Assembly: GCA_021799275.1 (NCBI GenBank)
Contig: JAJZAT010000004.1
Location: 1-64,000, forward strand
Source: Bacillota bacterium
GTDB taxonomy: Bacteria > Bacillota > Sulfobacillia > JAJZYS01 > JAJYTV01
DNA: 64,000 nucleotides
Reading direction: 5' to 3'
In this document: piece by piece, positions 52,162 through 56,951 of the stretch
How the letters are laid out: every line of letters starts with the position of its first letter
How positions within the stretch are numbered: the stretch's first letter is position 1
Notes under the pieces: model-generated
Databases searched by the model: none
Seen by the model: only the letters and a program-made list of their open reading frames with translations
What the model was told of the DNA's origin: nothing
Made by a program: the position numbers and the translations under genes

Positions 52162-52937
52162 CAGGCGAAGGCCTCCTCCACGGCGGCAGCTGCGTCGAAA
52201 CCCGGCGTACCGGTGCCGAGGTGCATGAGATACTCCCGGTTGCCGTCACCGCCAAGGATCGGCGACGGGCAGACGCCGAGCGGCGCGAAGCCGTTCTCGC
52301 CGGCCGCCTGGGCCACTTCGCCGAGAACGCGCAGGTGCACCGCGCGATCCCGCACGATGCCGCCCTTGCCCACATCCCTCGGCCCCGCCTCGAACTGCGG
52401 CTTTACGAGCGCCACAACCTCCGCGCCTTCTTTGGCCAGGCTCGCCACCGCAGGCAGGACAAGCCGGAGCGAGATGAAGGAGAGATCGAGCGTAAAGAGT
52501 TCGATCGCCTCGGGCAGATCTCCACGGCGCAGGAGGCGAAGGTTCGTCCCCTCGTGCACCACGACGCGGGGATCGGCGCGCAGACCTGGGTCCAGTTGAT
52601 GGTGCCCGGCGTCCACCGCATAGACGCGCACGGCTCCCCGCTCCAGCAGCACCTGCGTGAAGCCGCCCGTCGAGGCGCCCGCGTCTAGCGCGACGCGCCC
52701 CCGCGGGTCGACGCGGAAACGGTCCAGGGCTCCGAGGAGCTTCGCCGCGCCGCGCGAGACGTAGGTCCCTGCGCTCAGTTCGATCGCCGCATCCATCGGC
52801 ACCAGTTCGGACTTGCGGGACGCCACGCGGCCGTCCACCAGGACCCTGCCTTCGGCGATCAGGGCCTGCGCCCTGCTGCGGCTTGCGCAGAGCCCGCGCA
52901 GGACCAGGATCTCGTCAAGACGCGTCCTGGGAGGCAT
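52161..52937 (-). CDS. tlyA: TlyA-family rRNA 2'-O-methyltransferase
   Basis: 258 residues: an N-terminal S4 RNA-binding domain (RLDEILVLRGLCASRSRAQALIAEGRVLVDG) and an FtsJ-like methyltransferase with the SAM motif LDAGASTGGFTQVLLERG and the catalytic Lys/Asp/Lys set around LDLSFISLR and ALVKPQFEAG. The family methylates 16S or 23S rRNA and some members act as haemolysins. It overlaps the end of dxs by 23 nt. dxs-tlyA is the conserved order. Confidence 0.92.
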   Translation of the reverse strand: MPPRTRLDEILVLRGLCASRSRAQALIAEGRVLVDGRVASRKSELVPMDAAIELSAGTYVSRGAAKLLGALDRFRVDPRGRVALDAGASTGGFTQVLLERGAVRVYAVDAGHHQLDPGLRADPRVVVHEGTNLRLLRRGDLPEAIELFTLDLSFISLRLVLPAVASLAKEGAEVVALVKPQFEAGPRDVGKGGIVRDRAVHLRVLGEVAQAAGENGFAPLGVCPSPILGGDGNREYLMHLGTGTPGFDAAAAVEEAFA

Positions 52938-54783
52938 CGAGCGACAGCTGGAGCGTCTGCGCCACTTGCGGTGCGCTGAGGCCGCACTCCTCGAGCTGCT
53001 CGGACCGCGTCATGTGTTCGATGTAGCGGTCGGGCACAGCGAAGCGCCGGTAGCGGCCGTGGTAGCCATCCGCCACGAGCTGGCCCAGAACGGCATCGCC
53101 GAAGCCGCCCGCTTCGGTCCCCTCCTCGATCGTCGCGACCAGCGGGAACTCGGCCGCCCTGCGCACCATGCCGAGGTCGAGCGGCTTGATAAAGCGCGCG
53201 TCGCCGACGGCCAGGGAAATGCCGCGCGCATCGAGCAGCTTCGCAGCGTCCAGAGCCACCTGCACCATCGTGCCCACCGCGAGAATCGCGCCGTGCGAGC
53301 CCGCGCGCAGCCACTCGCCCTGACCGAGGTGAATCTCCTTGGGCTGGCGGCCGACGCCGGGGCAGTTGCCGCGGGGGTAGCGCACCGCGAAGGGGCCGTC
53401 CACGGTCAGGGCGAGGCGCAGCATCGCCTCGAGTTCCTGCTCGTCGCGGGGTGCCGCGACGGTATATCCGGGAATCGCCCTGAGGTACGCCATGTCGTAG
53501 AGCCCCTGGTGGGTCGCGCCGTCCTCGCCGACGAGTCCCGCGCGGTCCAGGCAGAACACGACGGGCAGGCGCTGGATGCCCACGTCATGGATGAGCTGGT
53601 CGTAGGCGCGCTGCAAGAAGGTCGAATAGATCGCGCAGAGCGGGCGCATGCCCTGGGTCGCCAGGCCGGCCGAGAACGTCACGGCATGGGCCTCCGCGAT
53701 GCCGACGTCGAAGAAGCGGCCCGGGTGTGCTTCTCGGAAGTGTTTGAGGCCCGTCCCGTCGGCCATCGCCGCCGTCACCGCGACCACGCGCTCGTCGTCT
53801 CGGCCGATGTCCGCCGCGATCTCGCCGAACGCGTCGCTCCAGCTGACGCCGCCCTTCTTGGCCGCCTTGCCGAGGCCGGTCTCCACCTCGAACGGGGCGG
53901 TGGAATGCCACTTGTTGGCGTCCTTCGCCGCGGGCTCGTAGCCGTGGCCCTTTTCCGTCACGGCGTGGATCAGGACGGGGCCGCCCATCTCGAGCGCCCG
54001 CTTCAGCACGGAGCGCAGCATCGCCACGTCGTGCCCGTCGATCGGGCCGAGGTAGCGCACCCCGAGTTCCTCGAAGATCTGGCCCGGCACGAAGAGGTGC
54101 TTCACCGAGTCCTTCATGCGCTCGGCCGCCCGCGCCGCGTCCTTCCCGACGACCGGGATCAGCTTGAGGGCGGACTCCACGTCGTGCTTGAAACGGCGCA
54201 CGGCCGGGGTGGTGCGGATCCTCGTGAGGTAGGTCGACACTGCGCCCACATTGGGCGAGATCGACATGGAGTTGTCGTTCAGCACGATGATCAGGTCGGT
54301 GCCGATCTGTCCCGCGTTGTTGAGTCCCTCGTAGGCGAGTCCGCCCGTGAGTGCGCCATCCCCGACCACGGCCGCCACCGCGTAGGTGTCGTGCCGGAGG
54401 TCGCGGGCAGTGGCGATGCCGAGCGCAGCCGAGATGGCCGTGGACGCGTGTCCGGCCCCGAACGGATCGCGAGAGCTCTCCTCGCGGCGAAGGTACCCGC
54501 TGGCGCCGCCCTTCTGCCGGAGATGCTGAAACAGCTCGCGGCGCCCTGTCAGGAGCTTGTGCGCGTACGCCTGGTGCCCCACGTCGAAGACCAGCTTGTC
54601 ACTCTCGCGATGCAAAACGGCGTGCAGCGCGACCGTGATCTCGACGGCGCCCAGACTTGGCGCCAGGTGGCCTCCTACCCGGGACACGACATCGATGATC
54701 TCGCGGCGGACGTCGCTGCAGAGCACCCTGAGCTCGGCATCGCTCATCTGCCCGATGTCCCGGCCTTGGAGCAGATCCTCCAT
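52915..54783 (-). CDS. dxs: 1-deoxy-D-xylulose-5-phosphate synthase
   Basis: 622 residues of the transketolase-like enzyme: GAVEITVALHAVLH, the thiamine-diphosphate motif VVGDGALTGGLAYEGLNNAG to NDNSMSIS, HDVAMLRSVL, and the pyrimidine domain with DVGIAEAHAVTFSAGLA. It makes DXP for the MEP isoprenoid route. It lies directly after oapA; the stop and start abut. ATG 54783. Confidence 0.95.
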   Translation of the reverse strand: MEDLLQGRDIGQMSDAELRVLCSDVRREIIDVVSRVGGHLAPSLGAVEITVALHAVLHRESDKLVFDVGHQAYAHKLLTGRRELFQHLRQKGGASGYLRREESSRDPFGAGHASTAISAALGIATARDLRHDTYAVAAVVGDGALTGGLAYEGLNNAGQIGTDLIIVLNDNSMSISPNVGAVSTYLTRIRTTPAVRRFKHDVESALKLIPVVGKDAARAAERMKDSVKHLFVPGQIFEELGVRYLGPIDGHDVAMLRSVLKRALEMGGPVLIHAVTEKGHGYEPAAKDANKWHSTAPFEVETGLGKAAKKGGVSWSDAFGEIAADIGRDDERVVAVTAAMADGTGLKHFREAHPGRFFDVGIAEAHAVTFSAGLATQGMRPLCAIYSTFLQRAYDQLIHDVGIQRLPVVFCLDRAGLVGEDGATHQGLYDMAYLRAIPGYTVAAPRDEQELEAMLRLALTVDGPFAVRYPRGNCPGVGRQPKEIHLGQGEWLRAGSHGAILAVGTMVQVALDAAKLLDARGISLAVGDARFIKPLDLGMVRRAAEFPLVATIEEGTEAGGFGDAVLGQLVADGYHGRYRRFAVPDRYIEHMTRSEQLEECGLSAPQVAQTLQLSLDASQDAS

Positions 54784-55359
54784 TCAAAGCCCTCCCCGGC
54801 GTCGCTTCGGCCGCGGTTCGAGGATGTGGACCGGCAGCACCGACTCCACGGCCTCAAGTACACGGCCGACCAGCCAGACGATGGCGTCCGCCTTGCGGAC
54901 CGCCAGACCTTTTGCTGCTGATTTTAGACCAATTGTGACAGCTGAGACGAGCGCAACCGCAAGAATCGCGCCTAGTCCGCGCGCCCCGGGCGCGGACCGC
55001 AGCGCGAGACCCGCCGCGAGAGCCCCCGACAGCGTGCCGGCGATGTCCCCCACGACATCGGAGCAGATCGTCGCGACCCGGTCCGCCTCGCGCACCAACT
55101 GGATCGCCTTGCGTGCGCCAGGACGCTTGCTTGCTGAGCGGGCGTGGAACGGCGTCTCGTTCGCGCGCGTAGCGGCGACGCCGACGATGTCGAAGGCCAC
55201 GCCCAGCAGGATGATCGCAAGCAGGACAGGCAGGGCGGCGAGCACCGGCCAGCCGAGCGCGGCGGCCTGCGTCGGCCAGGTCACCACGAGGGCGACGACG
55301 AACGCAAGGATGGCGAAGCGCACCGCGCGCCAGCCAAGGCGCTGCGGTTCGCGCCTCAA
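54784..55359 (-). CDS. oapA: OapA, OLE RNA-associated membrane protein
   Basis: About 191 residues with two N-terminal membrane helices (AILAFVVALVVTWPTQAAAL and PVLAALPVLLAIILLGVAFDIVGVA), a central amphipathic, charged segment (FHARSASKRPGARKAIQLVREADRVATICSDVVGD) and a third helix (GAILAVALVSAVTIGLKSAAKG). The arrangement resembles the DUF21-type half of CorB/CNNM proteins. In Bacillus halodurans and relatives OapA is encoded between OLE RNA and dxs and binds OLE at the membrane; both the place and the layout match. TTG 55359 is preferred because GGAGG is 5 nt upstream; TTG 55371 is an alternative. Confidence 0.8.
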   Translation of the reverse strand: MRREPQRLGWRAVRFAILAFVVALVVTWPTQAAALGWPVLAALPVLLAIILLGVAFDIVGVAATRANETPFHARSASKRPGARKAIQLVREADRVATICSDVVGDIAGTLSGALAAGLALRSAPGARGLGAILAVALVSAVTIGLKSAAKGLAVRKADAIVWLVGRVLEAVESVLPVHILEPRPKRRRGGL

Positions 55360-55379
55360 GCGGTCCTCCAAAGAAATGG

Positions 55380-55992
55380 CTCGGGTGGAAACCTGCGAGG
55401 TAAACGCTGCGGCTTAGGTCCAGCTGGCTTTCCCAACCGGGGCTCCGGCCGTCGCCGGCCGTCGGTTCCCCTTTCGCCCCGGTGCGCCATGTCGCCATAG
55501 GCGCTGCTAGATTGCCACTCAGGCCGCACTGTAATCCCTCGCACGTCTCGCTCTTGGCGAACAGCCTAGGAGTTTTCCTCGCGGCGCGTGTGTTCCCTTA
55601 GCCTCTTTTGCCCGACGGGTTTCGTTCGGCTGCAACATCGCGCCGGGGCCCCGGACGCCAATGTCGGAACCCGACTTCCCCCCGCCAAGCTCAAGGCAGG
55701 CTACGCTGCACCAAGCGCCTGGCCATGCCCAGCACCTGATACAGGTACAACTCCAAGCCGCAGACGCGGTCCGCAGGCGGACTCTCCACGAGCTTGGGCC
55801 TCCGCGGAGGATGGGTGCGTTGCCATATGCCATTATGGGTGCCCCAACCTCCTCCGCTCCCAGCACCAACCCGGACTTGGCGTTCCGAGCCAGCACCAGG
55901 AGGTTCATCGATGTGCCCTTCGGCGGCTTTTTAGGCCCGCCCTAGGGGAGACACGTCCGGCTAGGATACTGCTCCACCCGAAAACATGAACA
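55380..55992 (-). ncRNA. OLE RNA (ornate, large, extremophilic RNA), predicted
   Basis: A 740-nt gap between ispA and oapA has no recognisable protein on either strand but is strongly structured on the minus strand. Helices: GGCGG/CCGCC around 55921-55945, AACCTCCT (55905-55898) pairing with AGGAGGTT (55853-55846), the palindrome CCTCCGCGGAGG at 55799-55810, and GTCCGC-AG-GCGGAC at 55769-55782. The gene order ispA - RNA - oapA - dxs - tlyA - argR - recN is the known OLE locus, and an extended -10 promoter at 55999-56007 would give a transcript of about 610 nt, the known length. The assignment rests on context and structure; the exact ends are estimates. Confidence 0.8.
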
Positions 55993-55998
55993 ACAGCA

Positions 55999-56007
55999 AG
56001 TATACCA
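55999..56007 (-). promoter_or_regulatory. Extended -10 promoter of OLE RNA
   Basis: TGGTATACT on the minus strand is an extended -10 (TGn-TATACT). Start point would be near 55992, between ispA and the structured region. No -35 is obvious. OLE may also be made by read-through from the asp23-ispA operon. Confidence 0.6.
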
Positions 56008-56099: not shown

Positions 56100-56951
56100 T
56101 CAGTGGGTCCGGAACGCGAGTTCCTCGACCAGCAGTGTCAGTCGTTCACGATCGACGTCAATCTCTTGCAGCGCAGCCAACGCGTTCGCCGAATGCTCGT
56201 GCAACGCCGCCTGCGCCGCCGCTTCGCCAGCGATTCCGACAACGTTGGGGCGATCCTTTGCGATGTCCTTGTGCAGGCGTTTGCCCATGGCCGCTTCCGA
56301 TCCCTGCACATCCAGGAGGTCATCCTTGATCTGGAATGCGATGCCGAGCTCCTGCCCGTAGCGCCTGAGCGCCCCGACCGCTGCCTCACGTCCTGCGAGC
56401 CACGCGCCGGCCGCAGCCGCCGCACCAAGCGGGTGGCCCGTCTTGGCCGCCGCGACCGTGAGCCAACGCTCGACGTCCCTGGCGCCCTCGAGGTCCAGGG
56501 CCTGACCGCCGACCATGCCGGGTCCGAATCCCGCACCCCTGGCCACCTCCGACACGGCGGCAAGCTGCCAGGCAGGCCGGAGGCCGGCGACCGGTTCGGC
56601 GAGAAGCTCGAACGCGAGCGTCAGGAGGCCGTCGCCCGCCAGGATCGCTGTGGCTTCGCCGAACGCCCGGTGGACGGTCGGTTTGCCGTGCCTGAGGTCG
56701 TCGTTGTCCATCGCGGGCAGGTCGTCGTGGATCAGGGAATAGGCATGAATGCATTCGACCGCCGCAGCCGCGCGCCCGAGCCGGCTCCAGTCGCCGCCGC
56801 AGGCGTCCGCCGCAAGAAGGAGGAGTCCGGGCCTCAGGCGCTTGCCGCCATCAAGGGCGTAGGCGGCCGGCGCATCCAGGATCTCGTCCCCGAGGGAGAG
56901 TCCCCGGATCGTCGCCTCGACAAGCGGCAGGTAGCGCTCAATGGCCTTCAA
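56100..56951 (-). CDS. ispA: Farnesyl diphosphate synthase
   Basis: 283 residues of the short-chain trans-prenyltransferase family: YALDGGKRLRPGLLLLA, the first aspartate-rich motif DDLPAMDND, the second DDLLD in FQIKDDLLDVQG, and GKRLHKDIAKDRPN. It makes geranyl and farnesyl diphosphate, downstream of Dxs. The TTG start at 56951 overlaps the xseB stop (TTGA), so the genes are coupled. Confidence 0.93.
   Translation of the reverse strand: MKAIERYLPLVEATIRGLSLGDEILDAPAAYALDGGKRLRPGLLLLAADACGGDWSRLGRAAAAVECIHAYSLIHDDLPAMDNDDLRHGKPTVHRAFGEATAILAGDGLLTLAFELLAEPVAGLRPAWQLAAVSEVARGAGFGPGMVGGQALDLEGARDVERWLTVAAAKTGHPLGAAAAAGAWLAGREAAVGALRRYGQELGIAFQIKDDLLDVQGSEAAMGKRLHKDIAKDRPNVVGIAGEAAAQAALHEHSANALAALQEIDVDRERLTLLVEELAFRTH

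Follow-up and report, generated by a model that had tools for sequence, protein, structure and literature searches.

A putative full-length OLE RNA locus with its own promoter motif, an oapA gene and homologues of the OLE partner proteins

Main finding

The stretch of DNA analysed here (64,000 nucleotides, hereafter the window) almost certainly contains, as judged from its sequence, a locus that makes a full-length OLE RNA, with a promoter motif of its own, an oapA gene and homologues of the OLE partner proteins in the same genome. OLE is known as a large bacterial stress RNA located at the membrane. It is well supported that the present copy adds a member to this established class and does not represent a novel type of RNA; OLE itself, its partner proteins, the existence of a dedicated promoter and the anticorrelation between OLE and MpfA are all already published. 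The genome (3.14 Mb in 61 contigs, 97.5% complete) is one that we take to come from an uncultured member of the Bacillota, in the class containing Thermaerobacter, and its lineage is GC-rich and probably from acid mine drainage.

Results

Identity and structure of the OLE RNA

An Rfam cmscan of the window matched the OLE family (RF01071) with 388.1 bits (E 1.7e-110) from model position 1 to 616, the gathering score being 50 bits, and gave no match to any other RNA family within the window (Table 1). The initial annotation had proposed an OLE RNA here and had itself named a covariance search as the test of this proposal, which the result upholds. A search of the genome found a single copy, the fold of which is more stable than that of shuffled sequences (z -5.8; 0 of 20). 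The stretch had also been said to hold no recognisable protein, and this remains so: a 129-aa ORF within OLE was rejected as a gene, as it has no family hit (E 0.5 or worse) and its frame is disrupted in the relatives L039 and L046.

The gene order ispA-OLE-oapA-dxs is as originally described, except that the 740 nt taken for the gap between ispA and dxs are in fact the gap between ispA and oapA (56099-55360), ispA and dxs being about 1.3 kb apart. The neighbourhood reads amaP-like, nusB, folD, xseA, xseB, ispA, OLE, oapA, dxs, tlyA, nadK, argR and recN, and so includes the isoprenoid, nusB, recN and argR genes expected near OLE; a comparable neighbourhood has been reported for ole loci (PMC12265935).

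Table 1. Features of the OLE locus (positions in the window)
Feature	Position	Strand	Basis or remark
ispA (farnesyl diphosphate synthase)	56100-56951	-	PF00348 E 2e-49; NF045485 E 4e-76, slightly under the NF045485 cut-off
Extended -10 promoter of OLE, TGGTATACT	55999-56007	-	TGNTAYNNT conserved upstream in relatives
OLE RNA, full length	55369-55993	-	cmscan 388.1 bits and covariation; expected transcript start about 55992
P1 5' arm, UCGGGUGGA	55973-55981	-	pairs with 55381-55389
k-turn/P5/P6 region, with AUCGAUGAA and GGAG elements and GCCA and UGGC kissing-loop sequences	55799-55915	-	sequence
Alternative pairing of AACCUCCU (55905-55898) with AGGAGGUU (55853-55846)	55846-55905	-	genus-specific, non-consensus
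P9 tip palindrome, CCGGGGCCCCGG	55643-55654	-	sequence and class alignment
P13 hairpin, GCGA loop	55484-55504	-	93% paired, covarying
P1 3' arm, UCCACCCGA	55381-55389	-	P1 covariation
Putative oapA Shine-Dalgarno, GGAGG	55365-55369	-	sequence; extreme end of the OLE model
Putative oapA, 191 aa from a TTG start; predicted membrane protein with several helices	54784-55359	-	weak CNNM match; family beside OLE
dxs	52915-54783	-	TIGR00204 742.6 bits

The structure was examined in an alignment of 48 OLE sequences from the class, onto which the Rfam structure was projected from the window and the pairs counted. Paired cells made up 87.6%, against 73.6% in shuffled alignments and 41-47% when the structure was slid by one to three columns; double-sided changes occurred in 131 of 164 pairs, against 91 in shuffles, the projection being biased to the window's own pairing in a way that affects the percentage paired more than the double changes. 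The covariation score was 0.427 compared with 0.184 for the shuffles, none of 500 being as high. The helix P1, which closes the RNA with nine pairs that Rfam leaves unmodelled, shows 96.3% pairing in the 48 relatives, with compensatory change in 8 of its 9 pairs. P13 is the OapB-binding stem in H. halodurans. By sequence, the dimer-contact elements are likewise retained, i.e. the A-rich P4 loop CUAAAAA, the P5/P6 kissing loops GCCA/UGGC and the P9 palindrome GGGGCCCC, and the palindrome at the P9 tip matches the published P9-P9 dimer contact (PMC12265935). Most of the class has a GGGCCC palindrome at this tip; a few genomes (L009, L017) have lost it, and the P9-P9 contact may therefore vary.

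The k-turn/P5/P6 region

In H. halodurans, this region carries the OapC and bS21 sites (PMC9723947, PMC12054373). The sequence here allows the C-G closing pair and the G-A/A-G tandem of a k-turn, with non-canonical adjacent pairs. In this genus, k-turn 1a has a non-canonical stem weaker than that of the consensus, with A-G and C-C oppositions beside P5, so that binding of OapC at this site is not assured.

The long-range helix AACCTCCT/AGGAGGTT of the initial annotation (55905-55898 with 55853-55846) is genuine as complementarity and does not belong to the OLE structure; it was rejected as a consensus helix. This pairing, AACCUCCU with AGGAGGUU, connects the P5 5' arm to the P6 5' arm and so excludes both helices, which are the ones present in the minimum-energy fold. 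It has eight standard pairs in all five members of the genus (with a wobble in L039), seven in the sister genus and two to six elsewhere, and is contiguous only in this genus. The P5 5' arm, ACCUCCU, is identical to the 3' tail of the genome's own 16S rRNA, and in H. halodurans bS21 binds an SD/ASD mimic in P6 (PMC12054373). The pairing might thus act as a switch state specific to the genus, a third state of P5/P6 that copies the 16S anti-SD:SD duplex within the RNA, which the retention of all eight pairs throughout the genus would fit. We consider this quite unlikely, as the pairing is confined to one genus in which four sequences are near-identical, is missing from the minimum-energy fold and has one pair broken in the sister genus.

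Promoter and transcript ends

In 36 of 49 loci the motif TGNTAYNNT occurs no more than 80 nt upstream of OLE or just inside its 5' end, whereas 500 first-order Markov simulations gave an expectation of 2.0 loci and a maximum of 7; this supports the extended -10 promoter proposed earlier. The distance of TGGTATACT from the modelled 5' end is typical and places the start at about 55992. In f1, the -10 is kept while the flanking upstream sequence drifts. No -35 is apparent upstream of OLE, and a consensus sigma-70 scan gave no two-hexamer promoter, the promoter being of the extended -10 type. The ole gene of H. halodurans has its own promoter as well (PMC9723947).

No terminator was found between OLE and oapA; the only site resembling one (56013-55996) was discarded, as it overlaps the promoter and the number of such sites is what chance would give (1 against 1.1). 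Because OLE and oapA are not separated by a terminator, we infer that transcription, once fired from the promoter at about 55992, would continue into oapA and dxs, and that the 3' end of OLE would be freed by processing. The same absence, together with a model 3' end that reaches into the Shine-Dalgarno sequence of oapA, would also suit an RNA serving oapA-dxs as untranslated leader or as riboregulator, in which case the 740 nt would not be an independent stable RNA. However, the OLE of H. halodurans, though in an operon, is processed to a stable and abundant RNA (PMC9723947), and in two genomes of the class (G040 and G058) the best match resembling OapA is at a great distance from OLE or on a different contig, so that OLE is not bound to a role as oapA leader. 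We therefore regard the leader as highly improbable and hold to an OLE RNA in its own right.

The oapA gene

The TTG at 55359, behind the GGAGG, is a likelier start of oapA than 55371 and is probably the true one, and a GGAGG with a TTG or GTG start is kept in the sister genus. The predicted product matches CNNM (PF01595) with E 0.0018, under the Pfam cut-off, and no OapA model in Pfam or NCBIfam matched it. Against the four transmembrane helices expected of OapA, it has about four hydrophobic stretches, the third of them weak, and its AlphaFold model, built with seven close sequences, is all-helical and of low confidence (pLDDT 51), too poor to be used in a fold search. One homologous family adjoins OLE downstream in 46 of 50 related loci. 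The putative assignment as OapA is based on the position of the gene, on the single family conserved beside OLE and on the CNNM match below threshold; published OapA likewise shows weak CNNM similarity (PMC11332333). In three loci, L013 (G040), L024 (G058) and L008 (G021), OLE has no adjoining oapA and the best OapA-like CNNM match is distant or on another contig.

Partner proteins and proposed function

Both homologues that the initial annotation had suggested looking for are present: an OapB homologue, for which the best PDB match is OapB 7k9b (E 2.1e-6), is encoded between map and infA, and OapC/YbxF, of the YbxF/L7Ae kind, between rpoC and rpsL (YbxF E 4e-16). A bS21 homologue is encoded on contig 7, and no full-length CNNM protein or MpfA was detected in the genome. 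On that contig (L058:1400-1700, C7), rpsU (bS21) is directly followed by an apparent yqeY start; unpublished evidence that YqeY binds OLE is mentioned in PMC12054373.

That the OLE might be a decayed, non-functional copy, as its 388 bits, a score that many members of the class exceed (the highest reaching 496 bits), could suggest, has next to no probability, since the RNA is untruncated, covariation is retained within the genus and the family, and the promoter, oapA and the partner genes are all intact.

By analogy with what has been published for OLE in H. halodurans and clostridia, the full-length RNA would dimerise through its P4, P5/P6 and P9 loops and be anchored in the membrane by OapA, while OapC on the k-turn, OapB on P13 and bS21 on P6 would give it its shape; it may aid adaptation to stress, including Mg2+ homeostasis. 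In relatives without OLE, MpfA may assume this role.

Distribution of OLE and MpfA

OLE was found in 100 of 154 genomes of the class, and because it is so well represented there, the description of the source as a new lineage stands at about the genus or family level and not above. When strong CNNM proteins are taken as MpfA, 25 of the 100 OLE genomes have MpfA, compared with 44 of the 54 without OLE (Fisher p 1e-11), and a CNNM protein is present in 13 of 17 genomes with a short or low-scoring OLE, compared with 12 of 83 with a higher-scoring one (p 1e-6); these counts ignore phylogeny, and families f10, f46 and f9 supply much of the signal. OLE and MpfA thus tend toward mutual exclusion in the class, an anticorrelation already published (PMC11332333).

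Families f9 and f41 (e.g. G019, G062; L056) have short, low-scoring OLEs, mostly of about 515-635 nt, together with full CNNM/MpfA proteins, of which f9 has two in tandem. In one further genome (G024:C206:8089-8506), the OLE match is split into two incomplete fragments and lacks the 5' part, through either decay or an assembly problem. MpfA may have replaced OLE stepwise within the class, the stages being full OLE, shortened OLE with MpfA, and MpfA alone. To the joint proposal of such a replacement in the class and of an anti-SD copy in the P5 arm of this genus, giving a third state that mimics rRNA, we would allow a small chance.

Significance and comparison with known systems

This locus adds a GC-rich lineage to the OLE RNA set. 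For the specialist its value is modest and lies more in the patterns of the whole class than in the single record: the promoter motif dedicated to OLE recurs throughout, and the separation of OLE and MpfA between genomes, with short OLE tending to coexist with MpfA, offers natural comparisons for asking whether OLE-OapA does the same job as MpfA.

Compared with the OLE representatives of RF01071 (H. halodurans, clostridial), the RNA shares the full-length architecture, the conserved core, the dimer-contact loops and P13, as well as the downstream oapA, the isoprenoid/DNA-repair/ArgR neighbourhood and a promoter of its own; it differs in being GC-rich, in its genus-specific P5/P6 complementarity and in an Rfam score under that of many class members. 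The putative OapA shares with the OapA/CNNM family (MpfA, CorC) the predicted character of a multi-helix membrane protein and a weak CNNM similarity, as reported for OapA (PMC11332333), whereas at 191 aa it is too short to accommodate the domains CBS and CorC that MpfA has. With OLE variants 1 and 2 (TANB77 and RF39 clades) it belongs to the same RNA class, this copy being full length.
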